From a virus: 25,245 nucleotides of DNA. This document shows positions 1,113 to 25,245 of this stretch, one piece after another. Numbering within the stretch: position 1 is the first letter of the stretch; the number at the start of each line of letters is the position of its first letter. The notes under the pieces are model-generated. The model was not told where the DNA came from. It saw nothing but the letters and a program-made list of their open reading frames with translations, and ran no database searches. A program made the translations under genes and the position numbers. The stretch lies in IMG/VR virus record IMGVR_UViG_3300022927_000101, positions 1 to 25,245 of that record, one strand, 5' to 3'.

Positions 1113-1143
1113 ATTGTGAAATGTTTATTAACTTCACTATGGG

Positions 1144-3083: not shown

Positions 3084-3086
3084 ATC

Positions 3087-3483: not shown

Positions 3484-3512
3484 TTTAGTTTATAATTAGT
3501 TTTTTTTGTTTA

Positions 3513-3547
3513 GCTCCTGGTTGATTAATTCGCCAGGAGTTTTTTTT
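3513..3547 (+). terminator. Rho-independent terminator
   Basis: An inverted repeat CTCCTGG (3514-3520) / CCAGGAG (3533-3539) has a 12-base loop and is extended by a G-T pair at its base. It is followed directly by a run of eight T (3540-3547). It lies 30 bases after the stop of the small membrane protein gene and 13 bases before the next gene, so it ends the first plus-strand operon and separates it from 3561-4748. Confidence 0.88.
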
Positions 3548-3560
3548 GTATTTTTACAGT

Positions 3561-4025: not shown

Positions 4026-4302
4026 ATTCCCATGCGTAGGTTGCGGTGCTTGCTGTAGGAAACTAAACCTGCTAAGCGAAGAACAACTGAAAGAAGTAAA
4101 CCTAAAGGCTAGAAAAGACGGTAGCTGCGTAAACTTAAATGAAGACAACAGCTGTGCTGTGTATGAAAATAGACCTGAAATATGCATTGTAAGCAACAGA
4201 GGGACAGAACACACTACAGAAGAATATCATAAAATGGTTGCAGAAATATGCAACGAATGGATGGATGAAGAAGGATCCGATTACCCTAGAATAAAATTAT
4301 GA
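4012..4302 (+). CDS. YkgJ-family cysteine-cluster protein
   Basis: Small metal-binding protein of the YkgJ type (putative zinc- or iron-chelating cluster). The diagnostic arrangement is CxxCxxCC at C8, C11, C14 and C15, then C39, C48 followed by YENRP, and C58 (RPEIC). A further C80 lies in AEICNEW. All ligands expected for the family are present, at 96 aa, close to the usual domain length. The biochemical role of the family is not settled. It overlaps the upstream gene by 14 bases and the nuclease gene by four, and could supply or sense metal for a partner, but that is only context. Confidence 0.85.
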   Translation: MSTSKFPCVGCGACCRKLNLLSEEQLKEVNLKARKDGSCVNLNEDNSCAVYENRPEICIVSNRGTEHTTEEYHKMVAEICNEWMDEEGSDYPRIKL

Positions 4303-4748
4303 GAAGAAGAACTAAGTCAAGACAAATTACAAGGCATACAAAAGTTAATGAGGATGGAATTCAGTTCGCATCAAAATTAGAGCTGTACATGTACAGACAG
4401 CTCAAGAAAGAGAAAATAAAAAATCATTACGAAGGCAAAACATTTCAAATAGTAGAAGGGTGTAATTTCGATATGGATTCTTGGGAAAAAACCAAGGGCA
4501 GTAAACAACTTACTGACAGAGGAAATAAAAAGCTTTTAGGAATAAAGTACACGCCAGACTTTATAGACGTACAGGATCCTCCTAGGTTTATCATAGAAAC
4601 AAAAGGCAATCCAAACGAATCCTTCCCAATAAGATGGAAACTATTTAAAATGCATCTTATAGAGAAAGAAATAAACACAAAGCTATTTATGCCCAGGAAT
4701 CAAAAAGATTGTGATCAAGTTGTTGCTTATTTAAAAACAATTTTATAG
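4299..4748 (+). CDS. PD-(D/E)xK phage endonuclease, DUF1064-like
   Basis: Likely structure-specific or packaging-associated endonuclease acting on phage DNA. The restriction-endonuclease fold core is visible: E28 in ASKLELYMYRQL, D87 in KYTPDFID, and E100-T-K102 in RFIIETKG, then an aromatic/basic helix (PIRWKLFKMHL). The order and spacing match the DUF1064/phage nuclease group. That group is related in fold to T7 endonuclease I and Holliday-junction resolvases. The N-terminus is strongly basic (RRRTKSRQITRHTK), fitting DNA contact. It is the last gene of the plus arm; the minus-strand virion block ends 18 bases downstream. A resolvase role in replication or packaging is inference. Confidence 0.8.
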   Translation: MRRRTKSRQITRHTKVNEDGIQFASKLELYMYRQLKKEKIKNHYEGKTFQIVEGCNFDMDSWEKTKGSKQLTDRGNKKLLGIKYTPDFIDVQDPPRFIIETKGNPNESFPIRWKLFKMHLIEKEINTKLFMPRNQKDCDQVVAYLKTIL

Positions 4749-10700: not shown

Positions 10701-10817
10701 TTCTTCTGAACGGAAATTAATTCCAGTTCTTTGATAAACGTCACCAACAACATTTGGGTTATTGTAGAGAAGTCCTGGTTCAGAGCCTAATGCTTTTTTA
10801 AATTCTATTGGATCCAT
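4767..10817 (-). CDS. Giant internal virion (ejection) protein, T7 gp16-like by position
   Basis: The 2016-aa product is the last gene of the minus-strand virion block, after genes that look like T7 gp14 and gp15. By size and order I infer the large inner-core protein ejected into the host envelope to help DNA entry. It is mostly helical and Lys/Glu/Asp-rich, with long coiled-coil-like stretches. It has Gly/Ala-rich hydrophobic segments at about 465-490 (near AIGSTILASGMEGL), 569-602 (LNMGLFIMAPPVGLANIGIG) and 1780-1805 (AAATLAAKASIGALASLVGF). Near 1735 it has FPFGKFAFNRK, a type of motif found in large phage-borne polyvalent/internal proteins. I could not find a convincing lytic transglycosylase motif such as T7 gp16 carries. 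Start ATG 10817. Direct sequence recognition is weak. Confidence 0.65.
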   Translation of the reverse strand: MDPIEFKKALGSEPGLLYNNPNVVGDVYQRTGINFRSEERIKLYMEKNEISFEGFDAKPLVEKKNLDLTQPQEPSSLELQSPGSVESGTSVPTASGIDRIESRIAEYRANESERINSHRFNGITADFLDREESEVKVDLENLIRTSNFGERFVIKEAQPGRNAIEVLSKDGSDQILIDLSLNGLMNTDGQKSDHLLTQASKLRDFFSKNTGSSFYTALESFKRDPDIALYDVLESNMNVPGEYIKSMALSTEEDSPKSIYSEVFVGEPGRKRISMDGLNLNRENIKKELEKARKEQAEKSSGYLPRTGVNLKPVTSEDANFLKENKTRIEELESTLTGLDKIESKYLVQRSNFSRNAAQLIHSGGGLKKFLGEGMMAKFKMESLVNSGLDPRDIKMKEIQIDGSDASLNELTHFTQDGTLRDAIYSGDISVSVSDFNESEGYDFLKPIVEKAKETERVQLRDLGSFWRGLSAIGSTILASGMEGLSNVVATALDAQRITEEAVYGLSLNEDSAYDMKDVERFLDMKYESIMNEDLFWKAAQSIRKEIPVIEGSISDAESMSQFFSKGAKGAAESALNMGLFIMAPPVGLANIGIGSYGSTIRETTNIRNYISGTGDPDAQYRGYKDMNVWQARALAGSKALGETLITRAFTYNFLKGLGNSAKAANLNLNKANEMTDFYAKSFINNINPMFRKSFVNEFKEENLITVSQMWTEQLFGTKDYTFKDYAKAMGDTALQLPFLTMPMTAAGYKTMSKSSKAFTDQMIVNAVGGKDLFDLETKFRQLDSEIRKVEEEKLEVTPRFIDDLYDRRDAVSDAIVARNNQVLSDIQEITDKGTLVKIAKNQAKIQHNNYVSRLDETSDRKRQLLVDDNTNLYDENIKLFEGMDSKKAQEVFDKNTEDAKSKANQNAIDTKATDLNPQEQTAWLLISSQLSSEDFQKESLARAGKDVPDSKKTITPYSLGDNGLMVKTTIDEGDVYKDTYNVYRKDANGNVINSVYSSAEITDAMNEEGSFGINVKVIDPSQDANSPIEYFSTSVEGVNDILNDLFEKVTVDYEINVPDDVIQVNQRLSVWTPSWALQAKGAKLDQMLKSSEQLKSVSDFLNVDYELINEQSPFHKEYKELKKAAQSDDFNVVARAVKIFDQKVVKPTKVVREIMLNKPVAGKISPITNLEALYTGVDGEYTMADAGHILSFLLKNDKMRTPLRNVSGAIDATLGKNAAIANQKMKDYSTLSFLPGFRDNLAVKMTPKALSQDKQRRENYLSLEGNIDRTVISMMDRYDQTSKLSPEQQISRMKQIIKGNIEKLSKDTSTHGKRRAEAWKRSYNNLVEGVSNHDEFVKRAQEVSADNYLGVKELQKIYTPELTERTLSHMSDYYGRTPKRITRYLPMILTSDNANNTNDASDETMLYRSTSGPASIKDLTEFDNILETDRTIFGDNFDALVFRSHQNINNEIESRENLDIMAGVLKSPEFRDMFDTEQRKTIGGAKSEADFDYMIGLLNTKVEDVNSMIGSTGSTMMRESSVYNETKKALYDFVSASRLGSFSMRASQGGSAMIGASLNMSVDGSNMMYNSLANFLAFNLKSKQESNTEFMKVLSRSATAARSGLDAIPGLDQAERRKGNYVLTEAAMKLAEASQKASSFILKKTVAESDASAGIASFGGFYYDRMKQTHPTETKDMSYDDFWKWANTKEGTKADIDAIAYADEQVNRSQLIAASQNQGSFYKDNKDVARIVFPFGKFAFNRKVGMANDISILNSELTSEGDKSRARNRLKSAAAEIATFKLIQPAAATLAAKASIGALASLVGFDDEYDSLVNEMNRKINALNPIGREALRQPFEVSNFSRDVQKEFITSLIDGMLPVPTPGIVNEPIFAGLNSLVIKSGLSEDEFFNVFSKNIRDMFGEPDPKNQAMSQKDFVYMVFTELGMAGMAVEDIYGIVETYDALMHNVSANKYSEVSADREYVPQVRDAVVTLAQLKALELVMPSADLKRFTRTLKGLLDRKYTVTIKDKPVEETVE

Positions 10818-13313: not shown

Positions 13314-14063
13314 TTACAAGTTGCTCTTCGTTGCTTCTGCGTTTATAGCGTAAAGCTCAACAGGACTGGTACTTGAGTTAGTCATGCTGATTTTTGCGTA
13401 ATACCCTCTCACTCCCTCAGATTCTGCTGATTGGTTTTTAGCAATAAGAATAAAATCTCCAGCATCAGGATTTGACACCACATTCGTAGTGTCTAAATAG
13501 TCTGATTCAATGCTTAGTATTTCTCCAACTAAAATCATTTCACCAATTTCAGATGTTTCTTCGTTCACAGAAGCCTTGAACACTCTGTCTCCCACGGAGC
13601 AAGTAGATTCGCTTATGCTGGGTAAATATATTTTGTTTTGAGACACAGAAGTAACAACTCCAATTCCTTGAACTGTAAGTTTTTTTGTATCAACAACTCC
13701 GTTGTCATTTCTAATATAAGAATAATACATCTCTTCTCTCTTTTGAAAAGAAGAAGCGTCTACATATCCTTTGTCTATTTCGCTCTCTACATTAACGCTC
13801 CACTCACCGCTATTGCCTTCGTGCTTGATGGCTCTAAACATTTTAGTTTCAGAAGGTCCGTCATTAGCGACAACCTCAATTTTAGATGGAGATGATTCGC
13901 CATAGAACGTATTTCTGCTTTCTTTGTCTTGGTGGTGAATATAAATCTGACCATCCTTAAACGTAAAGTAATCGTCATTTAAATTTTCAATCCACTCAGG
14001 TTCATATGAATAAAATGAAGTCCATCCTCTTGCGTCTTTTTTATATGATAAAGTTTTAGCCAT
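13314..14063 (-). CDS. Phage tail/virion structural protein (putative)
   Basis: 249-aa beta-rich protein. The N-terminal 90 residues carry a pattern I associate with virion proteins of aquatic and crAss-like Bacteroidetes phages: ARGWTSFYSYEPEWIENLND, then FTFKDGQIYIHH, NTFYG, and a KMFRAIKHEGN segment. The C-terminal part is a Ser/Thr/Val-rich beta domain (VTSVSQNKIYLPSISESTC). No catalytic motif or signal peptide is visible. It lies between a fibre-like gene (nine-base gap) and the ejection genes, consistent with a tail or tail-tip component. The family assignment is from memory of the pattern and should be treated as probable, not certain. Confidence 0.55.
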   Translation of the reverse strand: MAKTLSYKKDARGWTSFYSYEPEWIENLNDDYFTFKDGQIYIHHQDKESRNTFYGESSPSKIEVVANDGPSETKMFRAIKHEGNSGEWSVNVESEIDKGYVDASSFQKREEMYYSYIRNDNGVVDTKKLTVQGIGVVTSVSQNKIYLPSISESTCSVGDRVFKASVNEETSEIGEMILVGEILSIESDYLDTTNVVSNPDAGDFILIAKNQSAESEGVRGYYAKISMTNSSTSPVELYAINAEATKSNL

Positions 14064-14072
14064 GTTTTATAT

Positions 14073-15185
14073 TTAATCTATTTGCGGAACAGCAGTTAAA
14101 GAAGCAAATCCAAATGCTCCAGAAGCACAAGTCAAGGGGTCTATTTCTAATCTATATGTACCCACTTTCAAATTTACTATTCTAATAACCTCTGTAGGCA
14201 GTGCAGTTTCTTTTCCATTCTGAACGTATGGAGGATATCCATAAGGATTTAAAGGGAAGCTTGCAACCTTCTCGGTTAGACCGTCTCCAACCTTTAATAC
14301 TCGTCCAGTTCCTCTAGTGTATTCTCCAGTACTAGTGTTTACAGTAAAAGTAAACTTAACGTTCCCAGGTGAAGTCACGTTAAAAACAGAACTTTGAATG
14401 ACTGAATTAGAGCAATTAGCTGATGAGTTTAATGTTCCTGTAAGTACAGCGTTTTTGCTTGGCAATGTAGCTGTTCCAGTACAACAATCGTTACAGTTAT
14501 TATATATAGAGCTAGTTTCATTTACAATAATATCAAAAGCTTTTCTTGGAGAAACTTGCTCATCAACGTGCCAGCAACAAGTGCTATGTTCGGTCTTTAC
14601 GACGTTTCCTGGATTTAATTGGCTGGTGTGTCTAACGTATCTTTTTTCCTTGTTATTAAAACAGTTATATGTTATGTAGTGATATTTATTTATATCAATA
14701 TCGTTGAATCCTTGAATTATAGCCTCCTCATAAATCTCCAGCTGATCTGATCCTTGACCTGAATTGTACTTAGGCTCAGACAAACTACTAACGACCATCT
14801 CTTCTGATGGCTGCATTTCTCTTGAAATCCATTCTCCATTTAAGCAAGATTGATACTGAAATGAAAGCTGATATTTAGTAGATAAATTGTAAACTTGATA
14901 GCTCAAGCACACTTTATCCTCAACAACAGTTGTTGAACATTCAGAACATGAGTTTGGATCTGGACCAGGCTCTTCCTCTACAACGAACACAGGAGGAGGT
15001 GCAGATGGAACGACTTGTGGCGGTGGAGCTACAGGTGGAGGTGTTATTGGGCAACTTATATTATCAGTATAAGGAGCAATATAATCAGGATCTCCAGCTG
15101 TATTGGGTTTAGTGTCCCTAGTTGGTTTTCCGTTAATATATTTCCTTAGCCGTGTTACCGTCTTTATACCACTGTTCTCTGCCAT
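14073..15185 (-). CDS. Fibre-like protein with shared N-terminal anchor and Pro-rich linker
   Basis: Probable tail fibre or other receptor-contact protein of 370 aa. Residues 1-45 form an anchor module, including KPNTAGDPDYIAPYTD, that is repeated in the fibre-like protein at 20008-20904 (28 identical of 44 aligned). Residues 46-79 are a Pro-rich linker (ITPPPVAPPPQVVPSAPPP) ending in an acidic turn. A Cys-containing module starting CLSYQVYNLSTKYQLSFQYQ resembles a module in the large protein at 21904. The remainder is beta-rich with paired cysteines (NNCNDCCTG, TEHSTCCWH). The C-terminal domain (FNVTSPGNVKFTFTVNTSTG and on to LTAVPQID) looks like a beta-sandwich. The ATG at 15185 is preceded by TATCTTTG. 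Confidence 0.65.
   Translation of the reverse strand: MAENSGIKTVTRLRKYINGKPTRDTKPNTAGDPDYIAPYTDNISCPITPPPVAPPPQVVPSAPPPVFVVEEEPGPDPNSCSECSTTVVEDKVCLSYQVYNLSTKYQLSFQYQSCLNGEWISREMQPSEEMVVSSLSEPKYNSGQGSDQLEIYEEAIIQGFNDIDINKYHYITYNCFNNKEKRYVRHTSQLNPGNVVKTEHSTCCWHVDEQVSPRKAFDIIVNETSSIYNNCNDCCTGTATLPSKNAVLTGTLNSSANCSNSVIQSSVFNVTSPGNVKFTFTVNTSTGEYTRGTGRVLKVGDGLTEKVASFPLNPYGYPPYVQNGKETALPTEVIRIVNLKVGTYRLEIDPLTCASGAFGFASLTAVPQID
15051..15185 (-). repeat. Fibre anchor module, copy 1
   Basis: This stretch encodes the first 45 residues of the 370-aa fibre-like protein. It is paralogous to 20773-20904. A 20-base block (GGAGCAATATAATCAGGATC on the plus strand) is identical at 15073-15092 and 20795-20814, showing recent duplication or gene conversion, or strong constraint. 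Confidence 0.85.
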
Positions 15186-15200
15186 TGCCAGAATTTTTCA

Positions 15201-15208
15201 CAAAGATA
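15201..15208 (-). promoter_or_regulatory. TAnnTTTG -7-like box before the 370-aa fibre gene
   Basis: The minus strand reads TATCTTTG, with 15 bases between it and the ATG at 15185. It lies in the 28-base gap after the epimerase gene and fits the Bacteroidetes -7 consensus. No convincing -33 TTG was found upstream. Confidence 0.5.
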
Positions 15209-15213
15209 GTAAA

Positions 15214-16203
15214 TTAAGAGATTTGCTTTTTTATCCATTCGTAAGTAGGACGCAGACCATCAACAAGTTTGTACTTTGGCTCCCAGTTAAAAATAGATCT
15301 AATTAAATCGTTATGAGAAGATCTACCTCTAACTCCTAATGGTCCTTCTATATGATTTATTTCCAATTCCTTATTAGCTATTTTCATAACCGTATTTGCC
15401 AGACCGTTTATAGACACCATTTCTTCTGATCCGATATTAATTGGTCCCTCAAACTCTTCTCCTCTCATGAACATTGTGGTTGCCTCCAGGCAATCGTCTA
15501 TGTACAGGAATGACCTGGTTTGATCTCCGTCACCCCAAACCTCTATAGAGTCTTTTGATTCAGCCACTTTTCTACACATAGCAGCAGGAGCTTTTTCCTT
15601 TCCGTCATTCCAAGAGCAATTAGGTCCATATACATTGTGATATCTAGCTACCCTTACTTTAATGCCTAAATTCCTTGCAGCAGCTAAGTAAATTCTTTCT
15701 GAAAACAACTTCTCCCATCCGTACTCGGAATCTGGAGCTGCTGGATAAACAGTGTCCTCTTTGGTGATTGGCTTGTCCGCATTCAACTGATTGTATTCTG
15801 GGTAAACACAGGCTGAACTAGAAAAGAAAACTCTTTTAACGTTAAACTTAATGCAGTTCTTTATTACGTTTATGTTTATTAATGCAGAGTTAGTCATGAC
15901 TTCAAAATCATTTTCTCCTGAAAATATATACCCAGCGCCACCCATGTCAGCTGCTAAATTGTAAACTTCGTCAAATGAATTTTCACTATCATCTAAACTG
16001 TGCTGACCTGGAGCAAGAAACCAAGGAGATGAATTCAACCTCAAGTCATAAGAAACATACAAGTCGCAAATGTCTTCTTCGTTAAAAAACTCAGGCTTTT
16101 CTTTAATATCAATGATGCAGACCCAAAATCCCTCATCCTTTAGCCTTTTAGCTAAATGACCACCAATAAATCCTCCGCCACCTAAAACTAAAGCTGTTTT
16201 CAT
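15214..16203 (-). CDS. GDP-mannose 3,5-epimerase-like extended SDR enzyme
   Basis: Nucleotide-sugar epimerase of the extended short-chain dehydrogenase family, closest in motif pattern to GDP-mannose 3,5-epimerase. That enzyme makes GDP-L-galactose (and GDP-L-gulose) from GDP-D-mannose with bound NAD. The Rossmann GxxGxxG is at 8-14 (GGGGFIGG), NLAADMGG at 82-89, and SSACVYPE contains C132. Y161 and K165 form the YxxxK pair, and EKAPAAMCRK contains K204. C132 and K204 match the catalytic Cys/Lys pair of the plant enzyme, which ordinary GDP-fucose synthases and UDP-glucose epimerases do not arrange this way. WGDGDQTRSF and GVRGRSSHN also fit. Its ATG overlaps the stop of the carbamoyltransferase gene (four bases), so both are likely made together. 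Product identity (L-galactose versus L-gulose) is not decidable. Confidence 0.85.
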   Translation of the reverse strand: MKTALVLGGGGFIGGHLAKRLKDEGFWVCIIDIKEKPEFFNEEDICDLYVSYDLRLNSSPWFLAPGQHSLDDSENSFDEVYNLAADMGGAGYIFSGENDFEVMTNSALININVIKNCIKFNVKRVFFSSSACVYPEYNQLNADKPITKEDTVYPAAPDSEYGWEKLFSERIYLAAARNLGIKVRVARYHNVYGPNCSWNDGKEKAPAAMCRKVAESKDSIEVWGDGDQTRSFLYIDDCLEATTMFMRGEEFEGPINIGSEEMVSINGLANTVMKIANKELEINHIEGPLGVRGRSSHNDLIRSIFNWEPKYKLVDGLRPTYEWIKKQIS

Positions 16204-18767
16204 ATTAACTTTTTTAAATTACTGATTACCATATCCAATTCTCCGCTATTCAACATAACCCTTGCATCTGAGTACCTATTGATTATCGGTTTACCCATAA
16301 CATTAAATGATGTATTTAATATAACTGGCTTTAAACCTTTTTCCTTCATAGCTGTCAATATAGAATACACAAACGGCTCAGATTCCTCTGATACTATTTG
16401 AAGCCTTGAAGTCCCATCTTCGTGTATGACAGAAGCTAGGTCTTTATCCGAACACATTGCGTTGTGAGTCATGTACTTTAAGTTCGATGGAACATCAGTA
16501 AAATAATCATCTACATCAACATCTCTGCATATTGGAGCAAACGGTCTAAAATACTCTCTATGCTTTACTTGGGCATTGAGCTTATCCTTCATTCCTTCTC
16601 TTGGCATACAAATTATGCTACGCCTACCTAATGCTCTAGCTCCATACTCAGACCTTCCATGTATCATCCCTATAATCCTACCTTCGTCTAAAGACTGTAT
16701 CAATTCATCCATGGATATATCTTCTGTAGAGCCTATCTCATCAAAAGGGTATGACCCCAAATAAGCAGTATCAATAGTTTTTGGTTTAATTGTACCTGCA
16801 AGTAATCCAAAGGAAAGACCCCTGTCGTCTGGATTAGGAGTAACGTAGGCATCCCAAATAGTGTTGTTTATTATATTCATAGCGCCTCCACCAGCAAATA
16901 TTAGCTTGTGATCTGGGTATTTACGAACATAAGGCATTACCACCCCTCTGAAAACAGATTCAAACGTATATTGATTTATATATGCAAAATCTTTAGATAA
17001 TTCTTCGTCCAACCTAGACTCCCCATTAAGATTAAATGTCTTTTGAAAGTTTTCGTGAGCTTTGTTAGCACAATCGGATTGCTGTAGTTTGTAATAGGAA
17101 TCCATTTTTTCAAAAATATCCTGATCAAACTTTCCGTATCCAGATAACCCCATGACTTTTCCTGCGTAAATTAGGTTACCCCACCACCAGTTAAATTCTT
17201 TTTTTATAGGAGATAAGTAGTGACCGACAGCAGCATATGGAACACAAATGTCCTGAGTTGTTGTGTGTATTTTTGAAATCTCTTTTCCTTCTGCCAACCA
17301 TATATTGAAGTGACCCTCATCAGATCCTCCGTCAAATGTAACTACAAGAGACTTTTCGAAATCAGTTTGGTAAAGAGCGTTGTAAACATGAGCCTTATGA
17401 TGAGGCATCCAAATAAAATTATCTGCTGGAATCTCTTCTAGTAGCTTTAATTCTGAAGGACAACTATTGTTTATACAATTGTCATATCTATATGCTCCAT
17501 ATTTGTCTCTAAAGTAATCTATTATCTCAGCTAAAACTTTAGTCGGGTTTTTTAGCGGAAAATGACAACAAAATGCAGCGTTTTTAATGTCAGTCCATCT
17601 TTCGACCTCCACAGCCTCCAATACATCACCTCCTTTTGATATACACAGAGAAGCGTTGTGAGACCCATATATCCCTATGTTAAAACCTTCTTTCTCATAT
17701 TTCCAGTGGTAGTCCCAAGTTTTGTCCCAACTCCACGACTCTGCTAGCCAAGGAAATGTATCATAGTTCAAAGCACCTCTATTGAAATTAGTTCCTTCTC
17801 TATGCATATCTTTCCTTCCAGACTGCCCTCTAAGTATGTTTATATAGTCCGAAAAGGTAGATAAGAAGCTCCCTAAGAAGGTTTCTCCCATGGAGCATAC
17901 TATCTGATCCACCATTAACTCTTCGTGGCTATCTAGCCCTAAATTAAAGTCGCTAAGAAATCGTATGTCGTACTCTTTTTGTAGGTCAGAGAAAACGTTT
18001 TTATCTTTTTCATCTGTAGCAACATATGTTGGCACGTCTGTTCTGATTCTATTTGCAATGTCAGTAAGCAGATTTTCTGTTTGCGCCTCAGAATGGTCTT
18101 TTCTTGTTTGAAGAAAATCATTTCGTCTTATGTGTAAGGAATCAAATTCACCTCCTAAATCATCTACGATTTGTTTAGCGATATAGAAATATTTTTTCTT
18201 GTACTGTACTCCTAAGTTTACTTTATGAGTAACCTTGTTTCTTGTAGAAATATTCTTTCCGTATACGTGATAATAATAATGTCCAAAAAGGTTTCTTGGG
18301 AAGTGCAAAAATTTATCCTCAACATCCAGATTTATACCAGTTCTTCCTTGTGCGAAAGAATTATAATCGTTTTGATCATCAATGCCACAATACATGAAAT
18401 AATCACGGTCTGGACCATTCATAGGACCAAATTTGTCGTCTTGATCACCAAAAGTAATTACTTTGGCAATACTAGATACGTTTTCAAAGTATTGGGTTTC
18501 GTTTTCTAGCGAAGCGTATTCTGGAACATCATGATAATCAATACAGTCAAAATTCTCATAAAAAAGATCCTTGTCTAAAGTAGAAAACATGTCAAACCAA
18601 CTAGACTTATCTTCCCATTCAGAAAGAAATAAACAGTATATTTTTGGAGGTATGATCAGCTTTCTTCCTGTTATTACAGATATAGCAGCTACTATCTCAT
18701 AGGTCATCCTTATGTTCGAGTATCCTCCCCACCAAGGATCAAAAGATATGTACTTAGTTTCCGACAT
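16200..18767 (-). CDS. Fusion: O-fucosyltransferase-like domain + NodU/CmcH-type O-carbamoyltransferase
   Basis: Two enzymes in one 855-aa chain. Residues 1 to about 320 resemble the GDP-fucose O-fucosyltransferase (PF10250) fold: WWGGYSNIRMTYE (12-24), TGRKLIIPP (33-41), and LHIRRNDF (211-218) as the HxRxxD GDP-binding motif. Residues about 362-855 are a complete carbamoyltransferase. They include an N-terminal ATPase-like lobe (FNIGIYGSHNASLCIS, 362-377), MPHHKAH (454-460), TFDGGSDEG, GKVMGLSGYG and AGGGAMN. The C-terminal YrdC-type lobe has GRSEYGARALGRRSI (704-718), VKHREYFRPFAP and LNTSFNVMGKPI. The second half should transfer carbamoyl from carbamoyl phosphate via carbamoyl-AMP to a sugar hydroxyl. 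Sharing a transcript with the GDP-hexose epimerase suggests that the first half uses its product. It overlaps the dioxygenase gene by 14 bases. Confidence 0.85.
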   Translation of the reverse strand: MSETKYISFDPWWGGYSNIRMTYEIVAAISVITGRKLIIPPKIYCLFLSEWEDKSSWFDMFSTLDKDLFYENFDCIDYHDVPEYASLENETQYFENVSSIAKVITFGDQDDKFGPMNGPDRDYFMYCGIDDQNDYNSFAQGRTGINLDVEDKFLHFPRNLFGHYYYHVYGKNISTRNKVTHKVNLGVQYKKKYFYIAKQIVDDLGGEFDSLHIRRNDFLQTRKDHSEAQTENLLTDIANRIRTDVPTYVATDEKDKNVFSDLQKEYDIRFLSDFNLGLDSHEELMVDQIVCSMGETFLGSFLSTFSDYINILRGQSGRKDMHREGTNFNRGALNYDTFPWLAESWSWDKTWDYHWKYEKEGFNIGIYGSHNASLCISKGGDVLEAVEVERWTDIKNAAFCCHFPLKNPTKVLAEIIDYFRDKYGAYRYDNCINNSCPSELKLLEEIPADNFIWMPHHKAHVYNALYQTDFEKSLVVTFDGGSDEGHFNIWLAEGKEISKIHTTTQDICVPYAAVGHYLSPIKKEFNWWWGNLIYAGKVMGLSGYGKFDQDIFEKMDSYYKLQQSDCANKAHENFQKTFNLNGESRLDEELSKDFAYINQYTFESVFRGVVMPYVRKYPDHKLIFAGGGAMNIINNTIWDAYVTPNPDDRGLSFGLLAGTIKPKTIDTAYLGSYPFDEIGSTEDISMDELIQSLDEGRIIGMIHGRSEYGARALGRRSIICMPREGMKDKLNAQVKHREYFRPFAPICRDVDVDDYFTDVPSNLKYMTHNAMCSDKDLASVIHEDGTSRLQIVSEESEPFVYSILTAMKEKGLKPVILNTSFNVMGKPIINRYSDARVMLNSGELDMVISNLKKLI

Positions 18768-19971
18768 ACTCCCAGTCTTTTAGTCTATAATGAACAAACA
18801 TGTTATTAAAGCTAGTACCTCGGAATATTGTGTTTCTACCATGTTGGCAGGTAGCTGATTCATATAATATCATTTCTCCAACCTCAGCAGTTACGTTATG
18901 CCAACTGCCATCGTGTGCTTGGATGTCTAATCCCCAATCATCTGCTTCTGGCTTATTTACACATCCACAAGCCAAGTCTTTATCTACAATAATTATTGAT
19001 GATATGTGGTGAGTAGCTATCCTGTCTCTATGAAACTGAAGAGCAGCACCTCTCATGTAAGATCTTATTCCATATATAAATGTTGGCTCTATACTTTCTT
19101 TTGCGAATTCCTGATGCAAGGGAAGTAACATATTATGAACCATAAGTCTTTTTTCTGGAAGACTATTTATATCCATTATATAGCTAGTTATTCCTTCTCC
19201 TGGAATAATAGACTCCTTTCCTTCAAATTTTTCTTCAACGCCTCTTTCCTTAACCTCAGCATACATCTCCTGTATAATACTCCAGGCTTCTTCAGGAACT
19301 TTTACAACTTTAAATCCTACTGGATCTATCTTGGGCAAGTCCTCCCAATTGCTAAATGTTTTAGCAGGGGGAGCAGTGTTTCTGTGATGAACTGAAGCTA
19401 ATTGAGAATCAAGAGTGTTATTCCATGGCTTTTCTCTCCACCAGGAAGTCACTATGTATTTAGATCCAGAAATAACATCTGAACCCTCGTGAAGCGTGTC
19501 TCTTTGCAGCTCACCATCTTTCATGTCATACCACCAAACAGCCTTGCCTTTTTCTGGCTTTACAGAAGCTTCCAAGTTGGGGAAATTAGTTTCTCCTCCT
19601 TCAAAATCATCATTTAAATAAATCATGAATGTGTGAGTCCTGTTACCAGAGTGTAGACAATGATTTGTGTATGAATCTCCTTCAAAAAAATCATTATGAG
19701 GTCTAAAGTACTGACCAGGATCATATTTTTGCCCCTGAAGATCCTCTCCTCTAATCAGATCTATATTAAGTTCTTTTGCTATTCTAGTCTGTATTAATAC
19801 AGAAAGTTCTTCTTTTCCTAAGTTGGATGTTGACGATGTTCTGGCTGAATCATACTTTGATTGATCTGATCCAGAACCAGCAACACTAGATCTTGTGTTT
19901 GATTCGTCGATTCTTTCGATTAGTTTATCGCACTCCTCGTACGATAAAAAGTTTGGAATTTCTACTAACAT
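18754..19971 (-). CDS. Prolyl 4-hydroxylase-like 2OG-Fe(II) dioxygenase, tandem domains
   Basis: Iron/2-oxoglutarate oxygenase of the prolyl 4-hydroxylase class. The first domain (about 1-180) has H92-x-D94 (YFRPHNDFF), the EGGETNFP strand, H161 (LHEGSDV) and K171 (GSKYIVTSWWR). These are the Fe triad and the 2OG-binding Lys of P4H enzymes. The second domain (about 217-405) has its own candidate triad: H314-x-D316 (LQFHRDR), H377 (CQHGR) and R384 as the 2OG contact, with the final strand FNNMFVHYRL. Residues 181-216 are a linker. Likely reaction: hydroxylation of peptidyl proline, or another residue, with O2. It lies between two fibre genes and overlaps the fucosyltransferase/carbamoyltransferase gene by 14 bases. 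The Pro-rich linkers of the neighbouring fibres are obvious candidate substrates (inference). Confidence 0.87.
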   Translation of the reverse strand: MLVEIPNFLSYEECDKLIERIDESNTRSSVAGSGSDQSKYDSARTSSTSNLGKEELSVLIQTRIAKELNIDLIRGEDLQGQKYDPGQYFRPHNDFFEGDSYTNHCLHSGNRTHTFMIYLNDDFEGGETNFPNLEASVKPEKGKAVWWYDMKDGELQRDTLHEGSDVISGSKYIVTSWWREKPWNNTLDSQLASVHHRNTAPPAKTFSNWEDLPKIDPVGFKVVKVPEEAWSIIQEMYAEVKERGVEEKFEGKESIIPGEGITSYIMDINSLPEKRLMVHNMLLPLHQEFAKESIEPTFIYGIRSYMRGAALQFHRDRIATHHISSIIIVDKDLACGCVNKPEADDWGLDIQAHDGSWHNVTAEVGEMILYESATCQHGRNTIFRGTSFNNMFVHYRLKDWEYVGN

Positions 19972-19986
19972 TATTTTGTATTTTAT

Positions 19987-19994
19987 TAAATTTA
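19987..19994 (-). promoter_or_regulatory. Degenerate TAnnTTT box before the dioxygenase gene
   Basis: The minus strand reads TAAATTTA, 15 bases before the ATG at 19971. It differs from TAnnTTTG only in the last base and sits at the same spacing as the better boxes. Weak evidence alone, since the region is very AT-rich. Confidence 0.3.
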
Positions 19995-20007
19995 ATTCTC
20001 ATTACTT

Positions 20008-20904
20008 CTAGCAAGATAAGGACCATTCTGCTCCGTCTCCTATTGCATTATTCGGGTCAGAAGCTCCGTATTCGATTCTAACCTCTCTATTAGATGTAGA
20101 CGTCCAAGAGAACGAAAAGCTTCCGCTTCCTGGAGTGCTTAATGACATTCCCCAAGGACCTGGATAATTTGCTGTTCCAACCCATCCACTAGTAGATATT
20201 AAGCTTCCATTATTGTAAACGTTAAATCTATTAGGTCTATCTAAAGCAACCCAATTAAAAACGTTTGTAGACGTGTCAGATGGGTTTATTATTTTTGCAG
20301 GATAGCTTCCGTATGAAAGATCTAAAGTGGCTTCAGTAACAGAAGTTCCATTACAAGAGTAATCGTATACAAGCTCTGTAGTTGTAGTGGTTGTGCTTGT
20401 TGTAGTGGTCGCTTGAGTTGTGGTAGTTGTTGTGCTAGTAGTTGGTGCTGCACAAGCAAATATACTAGTTATTTTACCTGATGAGTTTACAGTATATGCA
20501 GAAGATGTTATTATAGAATAATATATTCCATCCGATAATAAGTTCTGTGCATTCATGTCAGTATAGAAAACATCGTTTACAACAGGTAAACTTGAATTTC
20601 CTGGAAGGAAATAAAATTCAGCATTAGCACCTCCATCTGTAGCATGAGCACAAGCATCAATTGTAGAGTTGTGACTGTGTACAGATAGTGTAAACGCAGA
20701 TAAAACATTAGAAGACGTAGTTGTGGTAGTAGATGTACTAGTAGTAGTAGTAACTGGGTCTATGTTTGGTAGACATGTTAAGATATCAAGATATGGAGCA
20801 ATATAATCAGGATCACCAGCAACATTTGGTTTTACCTGACCAGTATCTACACCGTTAACAAATTTTCTTAATTCCGTTACTACAACGACACCCGAATTAG
20901 CCAT
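20008..20904 (-). CDS. Fibre-like protein with shared N-terminal anchor and Thr-rich linkers
   Basis: The 298-aa modular protein is probably virion-attached. Residues 1-44 repeat the anchor of the 370-aa fibre-like protein (VKPNVAGDPDYIAPYLD). Residues 52-65 are a Thr/Ser linker. Residues 68-151 form a small Cys-bounded beta module (FTLSVHSHNSTIDAC and on to GKITSIFAC), similar in pattern to a module of the large protein at 21904. Residues 155-176 are a second linker of nearly pure Thr. Residues 178-298 form a C-terminal beta-sandwich-like domain (FNWVALDRPNRFNVYNNGS) that may bind a receptor or glycan. Thr-rich linkers of this type are typical O-glycosylation sites in other systems. It lies between a glycosyltransferase gene and a dioxygenase gene. 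Confidence 0.65.
   Translation of the reverse strand: MANSGVVVVTELRKFVNGVDTGQVKPNVAGDPDYIAPYLDILTCLPNIDPVTTTTSTSTTTTTSSNVLSAFTLSVHSHNSTIDACAHATDGGANAEFYFLPGNSSLPVVNDVFYTDMNAQNLLSDGIYYSIITSSAYTVNSSGKITSIFACAAPTTSTTTTTTQATTTTSTTTTTTELVYDYSCNGTSVTEATLDLSYGSYPAKIINPSDTSTNVFNWVALDRPNRFNVYNNGSLISTSGWVGTANYPGPWGMSLSTPGSGSFSFSWTSTSNREVRIEYGASDPNNAIGDGAEWSLSC
20377..20442 (-). repeat. Thr-codon simple repeat, linker 2
   Basis: An ACA/ACT-type trinucleotide repeat encodes residues 155-176 of the fibre-like protein: 18 Thr, two Ser, one Gln and one Ala. A shorter run at 20710-20751 encodes linker 1. Such repeats can change length by replication slippage without loss of frame. Confidence 0.8.
20773..20904 (-). 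repeat. Fibre anchor module, copy 2
   Basis: This stretch encodes the first 44 residues of the 298-aa fibre-like protein. It is the partner of 15051-15185: 28 of 44 aligned residues are identical, with an almost invariant core AGDPDYIAPY, and a 20-base block is identical at DNA level. Confidence 0.85.
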
Positions 20905-20920
20905 TACTTTTTACTTTATG

Positions 20921-20928
20921 CAAATTTA
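20921..20928 (-). promoter_or_regulatory. TAnnTTTG -7-like box before the 298-aa fibre gene
   Basis: The minus strand reads TAAATTTG, with 16 bases between it and the ATG at 20904. It overlaps the last codons and stop of the glycosyltransferase gene. It matches the Bacteroidetes -7 consensus; no clear -33 TTG. Confidence 0.5.
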
Positions 20929-21852
20929 ATGATTTTTACGATTCGCTTCTTTAAGTGTTTCATAATACAAAAATGAACATCTTTTTTCGTCTAACTTTAA
21001 ATCTGTATCAAAAGGGGAATTGCTTATGTATGCTCCTTTATAAAACATTCCGCTAGACGAGTCAGTGACTCCAGCATTGTGAAATATTGAGCATTCATCC
21101 CATCGATTTAAAGCGTCTGTAGCCCAGCAAAAATCTAATTCCTTTTCCACCTTAGTATATATACCTCTCTTCCAAGCATTCCAAATTGTAGCCCACATTT
21201 CAGCAGTCCAAACCTGAAGCATATGATACTCTGGATTATTCTTGAGTTTGGCTCTTTCATATACGTTAGTCATTTTATATAAATTAACTCCCATATCTCT
21301 ACATTCCCTCCAAAACTCAGCGTCAACATTTCTTAAAACGTATTGAGCGCCTCCTGAATTCTTTTGATTTCTCTTTACAAGATCCTCTTCCATTCCTGCC
21401 GTTATCAGCATCGTTTCCAAAGTGTCTCTACCCTTGCTAATTATGTATTCGTACCCAAGATAACTAACCGTGTCACTTAAATGCCAAATATCGCTATTCT
21501 CGTACTTTTCTAACCCAGGATTTTTAGTAAAAATGATATCGCTATCATGAAAAAAAATGCTTTCGTGTTTGAGTTCAGGATATTTTTCATAGTGCTTGTA
21601 TAGTAAGTGATGCTTAATACTAGGTATGTACGTCTTGTCTGGACGATCGTCTTCATATCTATATACTGATACTCCAGGATACTTTTCTTCTAAATAAGAA
21701 AAACAAAACTTTTCGCTAACTCTGTCAGAGGCTATAGAACAAAGTATTTGCACATCAGACAAATTAACGCCTACTTTCTCAAAAGAGAAAAGCATAACAT
21801 CAATCTGCCAAGCGAAATATTTTATTTCTGGCTGACAGCTTATATACTTCAT
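20926..21852 (-). CDS. Glycosyltransferase, resembling hydroxyproline/serine glycosyltransferases
   Basis: GT-A-type glycosyltransferase of 308 aa. The metal-binding DxD is D103-S-D105 (IFFHDSDIIFTKNPG), and NSGGAQYVLRN (165-175) and IFHNAGV (256-262) are further typical nucleotide-sugar or acceptor blocks. The N-terminus, ISCQPEIKYFAWQIDVMLFS then FEKVG, recalls the opening of plant peptidyl-serine galactosyltransferase and hydroxyproline O-arabinosyltransferase (GT96/GT95: C...YFxWQ...SFxxxG). The AEMWATIWNAWKRGIYTK segment recalls their conserved EM-containing block. That resemblance is from memory and short. The protein would be cytoplasmic, with no signal or membrane segment. It lies between two fibre-type genes that contain Pro- and Thr-rich linkers, so a virion protein is a reasonable acceptor. 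GT-A fold likely; the subfamily is uncertain. Confidence 0.7.
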   Translation of the reverse strand: MKYISCQPEIKYFAWQIDVMLFSFEKVGVNLSDVQILCSIASDRVSEKFCFSYLEEKYPGVSVYRYEDDRPDKTYIPSIKHHLLYKHYEKYPELKHESIFFHDSDIIFTKNPGLEKYENSDIWHLSDTVSYLGYEYIISKGRDTLETMLITAGMEEDLVKRNQKNSGGAQYVLRNVDAEFWRECRDMGVNLYKMTNVYERAKLKNNPEYHMLQVWTAEMWATIWNAWKRGIYTKVEKELDFCWATDALNRWDECSIFHNAGVTDSSSGMFYKGAYISNSPFDTDLKLDEKRCSFLYYETLKEANRKNH

Positions 21853-21867
21853 GATTATTATTTAAAA

Positions 21868-21875
21868 TAAAATTA
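21868..21875 (-). promoter_or_regulatory. Degenerate TAnnTTT box before the glycosyltransferase gene
   Basis: The minus strand reads TAATTTTA, 15 bases before the ATG at 21852, in the 51-base AT-rich gap after the large structural gene. One mismatch to TAnnTTTG; supported mainly by its fixed spacing. Confidence 0.3.
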
Positions 21876-21903
21876 CGAATAAAATTTTAAAAATCACAAT
21901 TTC

Positions 21904-24900
21904 TTAAACCATCTGTCCACAATTTAAATTACAGTCTTTAAGCGTAGCGTATTGAGGATTGGTCGTTGTTTCGAAACAAGTGTCCCCAAAACAACTCCAT
22001 CCTGAAACCGCTGGTGGCGGTGCAGCTGGGGCTGGCACTGGTATTGGAGTCGGCGCCGATGGTGATGGCGCAGTCGGCACTGGCGATGTCGTAAATACAG
22101 GCGCAGGTACTGGTGGCGCTGTAGGCGGTGCTACTGGAACCGTTGTATATACAGGTGATGGCACTGGTGACGCTGTAGGCGCAGCAGTTGGTGGCGGTGT
22201 ATATACAGGCGCTGGTGCTGGCGATGGTGATGGCGCAGTCGGCACTGGTGATGGCGTTGGCGATGGAGCAGTCGGTGGTGGCGCTGTAGGCGGTGCCACT
22301 GGTGCTGGAGCTGGAGTAGGACTAGGTGCTACTGGCGCTGGTACAGGTGCTGGTGCTGGAGATGGAGTAACAATTTTATCTTGACAAGCCACGCAATCTA
22401 TGTAAAAAGATGTTATGTCGTTTGTGTTATCGCTTCCACCTCCTTGTATTTCGTAACAAGTTCCGTTGTATAAAACGCCGTAATATCCAGCTAAATTAGT
22501 AGAACTTCTTACAGAAATAACCGTTTGAGGGTTATTACAGTCTTCTACTGAATAATAGAAATAAGAAGCTGTTGGTGCTGGCGTTGGAGTTGGGCTAGGG
22601 GCTACTGGTGTAGAAGATTCGCAATCTGTACAATCTGAATATTCACTAACTACAGTTTGTGTTGCAGCTCCACTAGATTGGAAACTATCAATTTCATAGC
22701 AAATTCCGTTTGATGCTTTTATTACAGTTCCTAAATCTAAATTAGAATCATAAGCTATCTGTTGGTTTGCTAATGCTCCAGAGCATAAGCGCAAGTTCCA
22801 ATACCCTCCTGATACTGGAGGCGTTGTTGGAGGTGTTGTTGGAGGTGTTGGAGTTCCAACGGTACAAGTTGTTGCTTCTGTTGTTAATACCCAGCTGTTA
22901 GTTCCACTCTGTCTGCTTACGCTTCCTTGTTCAGCACAGAAATCAGGTGTTCCAGAATCAGCTAATACTACTTGGTCCGAAATTAAGTTTCCATCACAAT
23001 CTCTGTATTGGAAAGTTAAGTTTTGACTGAAATCATTGTTTTGTATTGAGTAAGTATAACAAGGTGTAGAAGCTACAGGCGGTGCCACTGGTGGTGCCAC
23101 TGGTGGTACTACTGGCGTAGTAATACATGATGTGAAAGTAAATACAAATCCACTAGTCCCTACTTGAAATGAGTTCCCGTTGGTTCCGTATTGATCTTTA
23201 AAATGCGTGTTACCACCATTATATAAAGTGGTTAATCCAGCATCTAAGTATAGTGCATGACCATTGTTGTAGCTAGAAGCTACACTTGTTTCTCCGTAAG
23301 AACTATAAACAGTAACTGGCGCTCCTGTGGCAGCGCACGCAGTAGGTCCATCAGACCATCCTTGTAAAGGATTTGTTCCGCTAGATGTGTTAGCGTAAAT
23401 AACAAAAGAAGATACAGATGGTGGTGCTACTGGAGGTATTACAGGAGGTGTTGACCAAGAAACTCCTTGGTAGTCTTGGTAAGTTCCATCTACGGTAACT
23501 CCATAAACCTGATTCCCATCAACACTTTCTGTGATATTAATCACTTTGCTGGTAAGACCTTCTGCTGATCCTCCAGTCCATGCCCATGTAGATCCAGTAA
23601 ACTCATAGTCCTCTCCAGTCAACTGAATTGTTGATCCAGTAGTTCCGCTTGTAGGTCCTAATATATCAACATAAGGTGTTGCAACAGGTGGCGCTACTGG
23701 TGGCTCTACTGGTGGCAATACTGGTGGTTCAGAGGTCGGTGGCGCTACTACTGGTGGCTCTACTGGTGGTGCCACTGGTGGTGCTACTGGTGATGGCGTT
23801 GGAACAGGAGGGGTAGGTATTGTTACAGGAGCTGGCACTGGCACAGGTACAGGAACTGGCACAGGAACTGGTACAGGAACTGGTACAGGAATAACCGCAG
23901 GTGCAGGTACAGGAGTAGCAGTTTGCTCACAATAGTACTTGCCTATCTTCCAAACTACGGATCCTTCTCCACAATTGTAATCATCCTCTTTCCATTCTAT
24001 AACTGGATCCTGAACGCTAATGACATATAAATCATTGTAAGGGTCGTAACCTCCTACAATTTTATGATAATCTGCCGTTCCTATATTGGTTCTAAACCAA
24101 TCTTTCATTCCGTACTGAGAAATCTCATCTAAGCCATTTGAATCCAGCTTTAAGACGATACCTCTCTTGTCATCAGTCCAAAATAAATCATTGTACCATT
24201 TTGCAAAAGACTCTGGAGATGTAGACATCCCATATTCTCCTACAAAAGGAATTTGAGACCCTAAAACATCGTTTGTAGACGACACGTTTCCAGAACCATC
24301 AGCATTGTAAAGTACTGATTTTCCGTACATTACTTTGCTAGTTTTGTTTTCTTGAATAACTATTAGATCTTGATCTCTTGAAACTATTTTCTGTAAAGAA
24401 CCATACTTATCATCGAGATCCATGAACCCACCTAAGGTTAAGTTAAATTCATTTAATCCATTAAAGTTTGTTGTTTGTTCGTAAACTCCACCATAGGTAA
24501 GTGAGCTTATTCTGTTATTTTCTGCGTATCCAGAATAGTTAGTTAAAGGTCTTGCGTTATGCAATAGCTCTGGAGCATTAAAAGCATCCTTATACTTGTA
24601 GCTCTCTATTGCATTACCCCAGGTAAAAGCATTAAAGAAATCTAAAGTAATTAAGGCTGCTTGCTCAGAATCTTGATCACTATCATCAGTAGCTCCCAAG
24701 TGATATCCCTGACTAGACACACGATAAGTTTCGCCTATTTCGTAGAAAATATCGCTGTTAGTTACCTTGGGCTTAGTCTCTAATACAAGTAAAGAATCAT
24801 CTCTATCTTTTAATACTATATTCCATGAAGCCTCAGCGTTTATGTTTTTACCTACCTCAGTGTCTATAATTGTAGCTCCAAATAGACTTAAATTAACGCT

Positions 24901-25245
24901 TCCAGTCTGATATAAGTCAGACTCTATTATTAAATGTATAGGGTCCGAAATATTGTTATTTATAGCTAAAACTCTAGTTCTGGTTCCATTGTTGTCAGTT
25001 GAAACACCTCTTCTCCATCTGATATTTCCTTCTGGAATATCCTTGGTCATTTCTTCTTTCATCTGCTCGTGCCACCATTCCTCTATATTTGGATAGTATC
25101 TACTAGCAGTGTATGTTGCTGAAAATGTAGTTGATTGAGAGCCTTTATATTCAGTGTAAAACAACCTCATGCTACTTCCTGGACCAACTTCTTCACTATT
25201 TTCAAAGCCTTGTAGCACGGTCTGACATCTTACATCTTCATCGTA
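21904..25245 (-). CDS. Large modular virion/adsorption protein with Pro-rich linkers (5' end outside window)
   Basis: The frame stays open from a GTG at 25218 to the edge (nine more codons, YDEDVRCQTV), so the true start is probably outside. Numbering from the GTG, residues 1 to about 430 are a beta-rich structural domain, including FRTNIGTADYHKIVGGYDPY and WYNDLFWTDDKRGIVL, reminiscent of large tail proteins of Bacteroidetes podoviruses. The rest is a string of small modules separated by Pro-rich linkers. A (VP)n linker leads to an Ig-like module (TGSTIQLTGEDYEFTGS). A Cys-bounded module like that in the 298-aa fibre and a CYTYSIQNNDFSQNLTFQYR module come next. Two related CYEI modules follow, then a 121-residue Pro/Ala/Ser/Thr/Val linker and a terminal Cys knot-like module (GWSCFGDTCFE...DCNLNCG). 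It is probably surface-exposed. Confidence 0.7.
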   Translation of the reverse strand, partial: YDEDVRCQTVLQGFENSEEVGPGSSMRLFYTEYKGSQSTTFSATYTASRYYPNIEEWWHEQMKEEMTKDIPEGNIRWRRGVSTDNNGTRTRVLAINNNISDPIHLIIESDLYQTGSVNLSLFGATIIDTEVGKNINAEASWNIVLKDRDDSLLVLETKPKVTNSDIFYEIGETYRVSSQGYHLGATDDSDQDSEQAALITLDFFNAFTWGNAIESYKYKDAFNAPELLHNARPLTNYSGYAENNRISSLTYGGVYEQTTNFNGLNEFNLTLGGFMDLDDKYGSLQKIVSRDQDLIVIQENKTSKVMYGKSVLYNADGSGNVSSTNDVLGSQIPFVGEYGMSTSPESFAKWYNDLFWTDDKRGIVLKLDSNGLDEISQYGMKDWFRTNIGTADYHKIVGGYDPYNDLYVISVQDPVIEWKEDDYNCGEGSVVWKIGKYYCEQTATPVPAPAVIPVPVPVPVPVPVPVPVPVPAPVTIPTPPVPTPSPVAPPVAPPVEPPVVAPPTSEPPVLPPVEPPVAPPVATPYVDILGPTSGTTGSTIQLTGEDYEFTGSTWAWTGGSAEGLTSKVINITESVDGNQVYGVTVDGTYQDYQGVSWSTPPVIPPVAPPSVSSFVIYANTSSGTNPLQGWSDGPTACAATGAPVTVYSSYGETSVASSYNNGHALYLDAGLTTLYNGGNTHFKDQYGTNGNSFQVGTSGFVFTFTSCITTPVVPPVAPPVAPPVASTPCYTYSIQNNDFSQNLTFQYRDCDGNLISDQVVLADSGTPDFCAEQGSVSRQSGTNSWVLTTEATTCTVGTPTPPTTPPTTPPVSGGYWNLRLCSGALANQQIAYDSNLDLGTVIKASNGICYEIDSFQSSGAATQTVVSEYSDCTDCESSTPVAPSPTPTPAPTASYFYYSVEDCNNPQTVISVRSSTNLAGYYGVLYNGTCYEIQGGGSDNTNDITSFYIDCVACQDKIVTPSPAPAPVPAPVAPSPTPAPAPVAPPTAPPPTAPSPTPSPVPTAPSPSPAPAPVYTPPPTAAPTASPVPSPVYTTVPVAPPTAPPVPAPVFTTSPVPTAPSPSAPTPIPVPAPAAPPPAVSGWSCFGDTCFETTTNPQYATLKDCNLNCGQMV
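22006..22368 (-). repeat. Coding segment for 121-aa Pro/Ala/Ser/Thr/Val linker
   Basis: The segment encodes a linker with about 43% proline by my count (52 of 121). Apart from Pro, Ala, Ser, Thr and Val it has only a few Tyr, Phe and Ile. Motifs such as AP, SP, TP, VP and APSPTP repeat irregularly. DNA here is clearly more GC-rich than its surroundings, being built of CCx and GCx codons. Confidence 0.85.
22384..22563 (-). repeat. CYEI Cys-rich module, copy B
   Basis: Encodes a 60-aa module with the pattern C, about 25 residues, GxCYEI, about 15 residues, Y-x-D-C-x-x-C. It pairs with copy A at 22621-22803 and is separated from it by a short TPVAPSPTPTPAPTAS linker. Confidence 0.75.
22621..22803 (-). 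repeat. CYEI Cys-rich module, copy A
   Basis: Encodes a 61-aa module (SNGICYEIDSFQ, ending SEYSDCTDC) that shares its Cys spacing and GxCYEI core with copy B. The rest is diverged, so it is an old internal duplication or an acquired common module. Confidence 0.75.
23831..23892 (-). repeat. 12-base tandem repeat encoding (Val-Pro)n
   Basis: On the plus strand a unit close to GGAACTGGTACA repeats about five times with small changes. It encodes alternating Pro-Val (PVPVPVPVPVP). It is the purest repeat in the large virion gene and a candidate for length variation. Confidence 0.8.

Follow-up and report, generated by a model that had tools for sequence, protein, structure and literature searches.

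In plants, the hydroxyproline-rich glycoproteins, which include the extensins and the arabinogalactan proteins, are modified by a prolyl 4-hydroxylase (P4H), after which HPAT (GT95) and further transferases act (PMC8012813). In Dictyostelium and Toxoplasma, hydroxyproline glycosylation of Skp1 involves a P4H (PHYa), Gnt1 (GT60) and further transferases (PMC11570480). The P4H of chlorovirus PBCV-1 (vCPH, PDB 5c5t) has been linked to hydroxyproline in viral proteins (Eriksson 1999, as cited in PMC7019647), and P4H-like folds and 2-oxoglutarate (2OG) oxygenases are widespread in marine phages (PMC12774648). Here, we describe a 7-gene cassette of a crAss-like phage which, like its counterparts in many relatives, very probably hydroxylates prolines in extended, Pro-rich linkers of tail-tip proteins and attaches sugars to them, as judged from sequence comparisons. 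The cassette lies in a stretch of 25,245 nucleotides, positions 1 to 25,245 of the IMG/VR virus record IMGVR_UViG_3300022927_000101, which we refer to as the window. Protein decoration of the hydroxyproline type is known from plants and protists; for viruses of bacteria, our literature search found no report of it, with many journals lying outside the search and an earlier prediction being possible.

The locus resembles the plant system in that the P4H fold is nearest to that of an algal enzyme, the linkers contain AP, SP, TP, VP, and PP repeats, and some relatives encode a homolog of the HPAT family. It differs in being a phage system, presumably cytosolic, with virion proteins as targets, and in having an O-fucosyltransferase (O-FucT), a GDP-mannose 3,5-epimerase (GME), and a carbamoyltransferase in place of the arabinose/galactose pathway; furthermore, the similarity to HPAT is weak and was seen only in relatives, not in the window. 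With the Skp1 system it shares a cytoplasmic P4H, a PF11397 (GT60) domain in relatives and a fucosyltransferase-type enzyme nearby, but the phage enzymes would act on a long repeat linker and not on a single proline of the target, and the window lacks PF11397. Like PBCV-1, the phage encodes a viral P4H, but PBCV-1 is a virus of eukaryotic algae, and we know of no hydroxyproline glycosyltransferase beside its P4H. In cyanophage S-SCSM1, a fucosyltransferase, a 2OG oxygenase, and a carbamoyltransferase are encoded by separate neighboring genes together with epimerases, but these are located in a large sugar cluster away from the tail genes. It was also noted that S-SCSM1 encodes Pro-rich virion proteins (L309:23417-31270, L312:5255-8014; RPRPQPQP, TPSPTPRPSP). 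Their genes are located at about 23462-31273 and 170258-173017 of NC_070962, and at least a dozen genes of this phage are annotated as 2OG oxygenases.

Gene families and linkers of the cassette

According to the open reading frame calls, the cassette extends from position 25245 to 14073, entirely on the minus strand, in the order FIB1, GT-A glycosyltransferase, FIB2, dioxygenase, O-FucT/carbamoyltransferase fusion, epimerase, and FIB3. Genes for linker-bearing tail proteins are interleaved with the 4 enzyme genes across the cassette, and the neighboring genes for the dioxygenase, the fusion and the epimerase overlap by 4 to 14 bases in an operon-like manner. The features are as follows.

21904 to 25245, minus: FIB1, muzzle body (C-terminal ~430 amino acids in the window), then Pro-rich linkers and small Cys-containing modules; phrog_14478
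23653 to 23928, minus: Pro-rich linker 1 of FIB1 (VPVPVPVP..., APPVAPPVEPP)
23047 to 23136, minus: Pro-rich linker 2 of FIB1
22792 to 22875, minus: Pro-rich linker 3 of FIB1
21988 to 22383, minus: Pro-rich linker 4 of FIB1 (SPTPAPAPVAPPTAP...)
20926 to 21852, minus: GT-A glycosyltransferase of the phrog_4417 family (E = 2.8e-77), invariant DxD (D103, D105)
20008 to 20904, minus: FIB2, fiber-type, N-terminal GDPDYIAPY anchor and 2 Thr-rich linkers
20767 to 20904, minus: N-terminal anchor domain of FIB2, also in FIB3 (62% identity over ~42 amino acids)
20686 to 20781, minus: Thr-rich linker 1 of FIB2
20344 to 20475, minus: Thr-rich linker 2 of FIB2
18754 to 19971, minus: two-domain 2OG-Fe(II) dioxygenase, AlphaFold2 model with a mean predicted local distance difference test (pLDDT) score of 92.4
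19420 to 19971, minus: predicted P4H domain (H92, D94, H161, K171)
18757 to 19350, minus: second 2OG-oxygenase domain, HxD...H (H314, D316, H377)
16200 to 18767, minus: O-fucosyltransferase/O-carbamoyltransferase fusion; PF10250, PF02543, PF16861
17748 to 18767, minus: O-FucT domain with HxRRxD motif; PF10250
16218 to 17681, minus: carbamoyltransferase domain of the NodU/TobZ/GdmN type; PF02543 and PF16861, both above cut-off
15214 to 16203, minus: GME; PDB 2c59
14073 to 15185, minus: FIB3, fiber-type, GDPDYIAPY anchor as in FIB2 and a Pro-rich linker
14949 to 15080, minus: Pro-rich linker of FIB3
13314 to 14063, minus: protein with the crassvirus muzzle C-terminal domain (crAss_MUZ_C); PF25729, E = 1e-14

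The first half of the dioxygenase is, by family, clearly predicted to be a prolyl 4-hydroxylase. The protein matched PF13640 in Pfam (E = 2.3e-15), and the PDB sequences matched by the P4H domain up to E = 0.01 were all prolyl 4-hydroxylases (best 4.9e-37). The top Foldseek match of the AlphaFold2 model was 3gze, an algal P4H with a (Ser-Pro)5 substrate (E = 2.7e-17). The catalytic residues could be aligned to those of 5iax and 2jig, and both the iron triad HxD...H (H92, D94, H161) and the 2OG lysine at H+10 (K171) were found in 27 of 27 relatives. The second domain contained HxD...H in the same proportion (27/27), with the position of the P4H lysine not kept, and was 33.8% identical to a 2OG oxygenase of S-SCSM1, which is a stand-alone protein adjoining the O-FucT in that phage. 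A bacterial origin was considered and rejected; the search gave only 6 weak relatives, all in bacterial metagenome-assembled genomes.

The O-FucT domain matched PF10250 with 49.6 bits (cut-off 31.5; E = 5.7e-13), the HxRRxD donor motif was present in 8 of 8 sequences, and the structure match to POFUT2 had a value of 1.5e-11. The carbamoyltransferase domain was matched by Carbam_trans_C (E = 1.7e-46) and by PDB 7xb6 (9.4e-43). The epimerase, which matched the Epimerase family in Pfam (E = 2.4e-38), was far closer in sequence to GDP-mannose 3,5-epimerases than to the next family: its best PDB match was 2c59 (E = 3e-84), 57 orders of magnitude from the next family (5e-27), and the SSAC, YxxxK, and EKAPAA motifs of GME are kept in the alignment.

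The model of the GT-A enzyme had a pLDDT of 94.6, and DxD was present in 29 of 29 aligned sequences. Foldseek returned generic GT-A folds only (WbbM, UGGT, LARGE1, COLGALT1), and the donor and acceptor therefore stay predicted; a PDB sequence search with the enzyme gave nothing meaningful. Members of the phrog_4417 family with 34% to 42% identity were identified in Lactococcus phage 1706, Enterococcus phage Planchet, and Chryseobacterium phage MA9V-3. In phage 1706, the gene directly follows that of the major tail protein, and in Planchet it follows the capsid gene (L005:5001-5849, L006:6001-6867); these enzymes, which are annotated as hypothetical, may glycosylate virion proteins. In MA9V-3, it directly follows genes for Thr-rich linkers with the same N-terminal anchor as FIB2 and FIB3. 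The 3 phages differ from the window in that no P4H was present in the stretches read.

We assigned the window to a crAss-like phage on account of the protein encoded at 13314-14063, in which the C-terminal domain of crassvirus muzzle proteins was identified. In crassviruses, the tip of the tail is formed by the muzzle (PMC10172136). FIB1, which matched the virion structural protein family phrog_14478 (E = 1.7e-87), is open at the 5' end and runs past the edge of the window; its full length of 1778 amino acids, of which the muzzle body makes up ~1100 residues, was found in a near-identical contig (locus L010). We identify FIB1 as a muzzle protein extended at its C-terminus by a long series of small modules with Pro-rich linkers between them, since in other phages a homologous body and the muzzle domain belong to one polypeptide, the body being fused to crAss_MUZ_C in L123 and to a MUZ match in L119, L130, and L140. 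The best 40-residue segments of the linkers contained 50% Pro (binomial ~4e-20) and 53% Thr (~3e-17), as compared to 3.1% Pro and 5.1% Thr in the other proteins of the window.

An earlier note on this DNA had described 3 linker-bearing fiber-type genes interleaved on one strand with 4 enzyme genes, all of which are present and belong to the families named. A few details were revised. The start of the locus had been placed at 15051, which cuts FIB3 and its Pro-rich linker at 14949-15080. The linkers of the 3 supposed fibers were correctly recognized, but the first fiber is the tail of a muzzle protein that extends outside the window. Likewise, the prolyl-hydroxylase-like dioxygenase does include a P4H, but as 1 of 2 2OG domains.

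Co-occurrence of enzymes and linker types in related phages

Relatives were collected by IMG/VR scans with alignments of the dioxygenase and the glycosyltransferase (GT), together with earlier scans, giving 104 P4H loci (38 clusters at 80% identity) and 71 loci, here called GT-only, in which the GT occurs without P4H (40 clusters). Pro-rich linkers, defined as at least 35% Pro in 40 residues, were present in 31 of the 38 P4H clusters, whereas only 1 of the 40 GT-only clusters contained one (Fisher 7e-14). The contig in this single cluster (L026) ends just past the GT, before the P4H gene, and is near-identical to phages encoding P4H. Thr-rich linkers, which are typical of GT-only phages, were found in 33 of 44 clusters with the GT, as compared to 2 of 34 without it (Fisher 4e-10). 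PF13640 was not found in any of 32 GT-only contigs scanned whole.

The most telling comparison is that of the orthologous muzzle proteins, in which the same junction after the conserved end of the body is followed by (xP)n in phages with P4H and by TTTTT in those without. Among phages that share the muzzle body, Pro-rich linkers were present in 21 of 22 with P4H versus 1 of 15 that were GT-only. Because the G+C content of the P4H and GT-only sets is equal (0.35 and 0.34) and the linkers are far above the proteome background, chance or base composition was ruled out as their source. The pairing of P4H with Pro-rich linkers recurs in other lineages (L111/L049, L176, L177), to which S-SCSM1 with its Pro-rich virion proteins can be added. 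Seven P4H clusters were under the linker threshold (L016, L104, L049, L107, L101, L083, L113). L016 and L104 are short fragments, the start of L049 falls within a truncated Pro-rich gene, L107 is incomplete and has a relative with the linker (L111), and L101 is borderline (0.33).

Several relatives furthermore encode candidate hydroxyproline glycosyltransferases. In L025 to L030, a PF11397 domain (E = 6.5e-27) replaces the carbamoyltransferase half of the fusion, while in L013 to L015 a free-standing PF11397 protein (E = 1e-25) is encoded between the fusion and the epimerase. We take PF11397 to be GT60, to which the Skp1 hydroxyproline GlcNAc-transferase belongs. In L050, where the P4H cassette lacks PF11397, a nearby gene matched the plant HPAT model PF23452 (GT95) above the cut-off (E = 1.1e-7). 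In whole-contig scans, PF11397 was found in 10 of 25 contigs with P4H versus 1 of 25 without, and PF23452 in 6 of 25 versus 0 of 25. A PDB sequence search with the PF11397-type domains gave nothing meaningful. Among the 38 P4H clusters, 15 contained the O-FucT, 11 the carbamoyltransferase, and 8 GME, whereas none of these modules was found in the 40 GT-only clusters.

We also noted some further genes. A 1205-residue chain beside the P4H in L107 (5498-9112) combines a weak HPAT-like N-terminus, an O-FucT and 2 GT60 domains. In L073 (11146-12054) and L113 (5584-6489), a protein with a cysteine motif that by eye is radical-SAM-like, possibly an extra modification step, is encoded between the P4H and the GT60-type gene. 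In the phage contig L131, positions 119666-120544 of a 142-kb record matched PF11397 very strongly (E = 2e-55) far from the GT-A gene and with no PF13640 match.

Proposed pathway and alternative explanations

We consider it likely that the locus is a phage-encoded cassette for the modification of virion proteins, combining hydroxyproline O-linked glycosylation of Pro-rich linkers with a separate Thr-linked glycosylation. Late in infection, the P4H domain would act on the muzzle extension and on FIB3, hydroxylating prolines in their xP repeats (AP, VP, TP, SP, PP), and a glycosyltransferase would then place a sugar on the hydroxyprolines. The likeliest candidate for this step in the lineage of the window is the O-FucT domain; in relatives it could be a GT60-type or HPAT-type enzyme. 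GDP-mannose 3,5-epimerases form GDP-L-galactose, a donor usable by fucosyltransferases. The epimerase would thus supply the O-FucT, and a sugar hydroxyl would receive its cap from the carbamoyltransferase, both enzymes plausibly acting as accessories that shape the glycan. The GT-A enzyme would independently glycosylate the Thr-rich linkers of FIB2, so that the 2 linker types, both carried by the phage in the window, are probably served by separate enzymes. The glycosylated spacers formed in this way at the tail tip would be extended, stiff, and resistant to proteases, or would alternatively control non-specific binding there. More broadly, we lean slightly towards the view that tailed phages use 2 interchangeable tail-tip linker codes, a Thr code with one GT-A enzyme as its reader and a Pro code read by a prolyl hydroxylase with HPAT- and Gnt1-related glycosyltransferases, that linkers and enzymes are exchanged together, and that this would be the first hydroxyproline O-glycosylation in viruses of bacteria.

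Several observations weigh against such a pathway. L083 and L113 encode a P4H with no Pro-rich protein nearby and are true exceptions. The O-FucT, the carbamoyltransferase and the epimerase are each present in a minority of the P4H clusters, and in L063, L065, and L068 the P4H directly adjoins the muzzle gene with no gene between. Neither PF11397 nor PF23452 was found in the window or its 55.9-kb near-twin, and the hydroxyproline glycosyltransferase of this phage is therefore only inferred; the similarity to HPAT is modest, with 3 of 8 members of the L050-type gene family matching PF23452. The muzzle tree shows no more than 3 changes in P4H, from which 2 to 3 independent pairs are obtained, and the correlation in crAss-like phages therefore rests on 2 or 3 events; nearly all of the pairs go in the predicted direction, their number being too small for significance. 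Finally, of the contigs found in a search for the TPAP-repeat pattern, few had PF13640 (5 of 45 in total, 5 of 18 at low G+C). The converse relationship, that a Pro-rich linker implies a P4H, thus fails in general: such linkers do not need P4H and are alone no evidence for it.

The P4H might merely hydroxylate the linker prolines to stiffen polyproline-II spacers, with the sugar enzymes acting on Thr linkers or other virion glycans. The cassettes of L063, L065, and L068, which have no glycosyltransferase beside the P4H, are consistent with this, as are the tracking of Thr-rich linkers by the GT-A enzyme itself and the viral precedent of the PBCV-1 enzyme, whose structure 5c5t was among the PDB sequence and Foldseek matches. 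We nevertheless think it unlikely, given that homologs of 2 glycosyltransferase families specific for hydroxyproline were found repeatedly in P4H cassettes but hardly ever in GT-only contigs, and that the O-FucT module was found only with P4H (15/38 vs 0/40). That the sugar genes alter a host surface polysaccharide, for receptor masking or superinfection exclusion, with incidental linkage to the linker genes, is very unlikely: homologs of the fucosyltransferase, the second 2OG domain and the carbamoyltransferase do occur in the long sugar-biosynthesis cluster of S-SCSM1, but here the genes lie in conserved order between linker genes of the late tail module, linker composition varies with the enzymes present, and S-SCSM1 too has Pro-rich virion proteins.

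Some bacterial P4Hs have been reported to act on EF-Tu, and the nearest PDB sequences include the P4H of Bacillus anthracis, with an entry on EF-Tu modification (5v7y). A host protein of this sort is a highly improbable target, however, in view of the tight association of the phage P4H with Pro-rich virion linkers and hydroxyproline glycosyltransferase homologs and a nearest fold that is the algal enzyme complexed with (Ser-Pro)5. 2OG oxygenases and glycosyltransferases also act on DNA in other systems. Modification of the phage DNA bases is scarcely credible here: the dioxygenase is most closely related to prolyl hydroxylases and not to TET/JBP, no base-synthesis gene is located beside it, and other phages encode members of the GT-A family next to their major tail or capsid genes.

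Hydroxyproline- or Thr-linked glycosylation of the linkers, as put forward in the earlier note, is thus favored by sequence-based co-occurrence and by the hydroxyproline glycosyltransferase homologs of relatives, while its alternatives of DNA modification and a superinfection block gained no positive support, although similar glycan genes also occur in the larger sugar cluster of S-SCSM1. The co-occurrence check that it had suggested came out positive for P4H with Pro-rich linkers as well as for the GT-A enzyme with Thr-rich linkers. Regular occurrence of the enzymes in phages without such fibers, which would have counted against it, was not observed for P4H (L083 and L113 being the only clear exceptions) but was seen in part for the GT-A enzyme, as 11 of 44 clusters had no Thr-rich linker. 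Carbamoyl capping, which had been included as part of the system, appears to be an optional accessory (11 of 38 clusters).

Flanking genes and significance

Outside the cassette, replication-type genes at 2-4748 on the plus strand converge on the structural module from the opposite strand and include a DnaB-like helicase, a MazG-like pyrophosphatase, an exonuclease and a Holliday junction resolvase. A protein of 2016 amino acids encoded at 4767-10817 on the minus strand, for which no Pfam or PHROG matches were found, may correspond to a virion cargo protein or an RNA-polymerase-type protein of crAss-like phages. A megablast search of the region against phage records gave zero matches, and the sole match in a scan with a defense-gene library was a generic 2OG model.

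Because orthologous muzzle proteins switch between the linker types, the hypothesis can be tested by mass spectrometry of virions. Hydroxyproline-linked glycans are regarded as a eukaryotic speciality; if the proposed pathway is correct, this chemistry would extend to the viruses of bacteria. It would also provide a function for part of the many 2OG oxygenases of marine phages, bear on the origin of these eukaryotic enzyme families, and offer soluble enzymes that can be expressed in bacteria.

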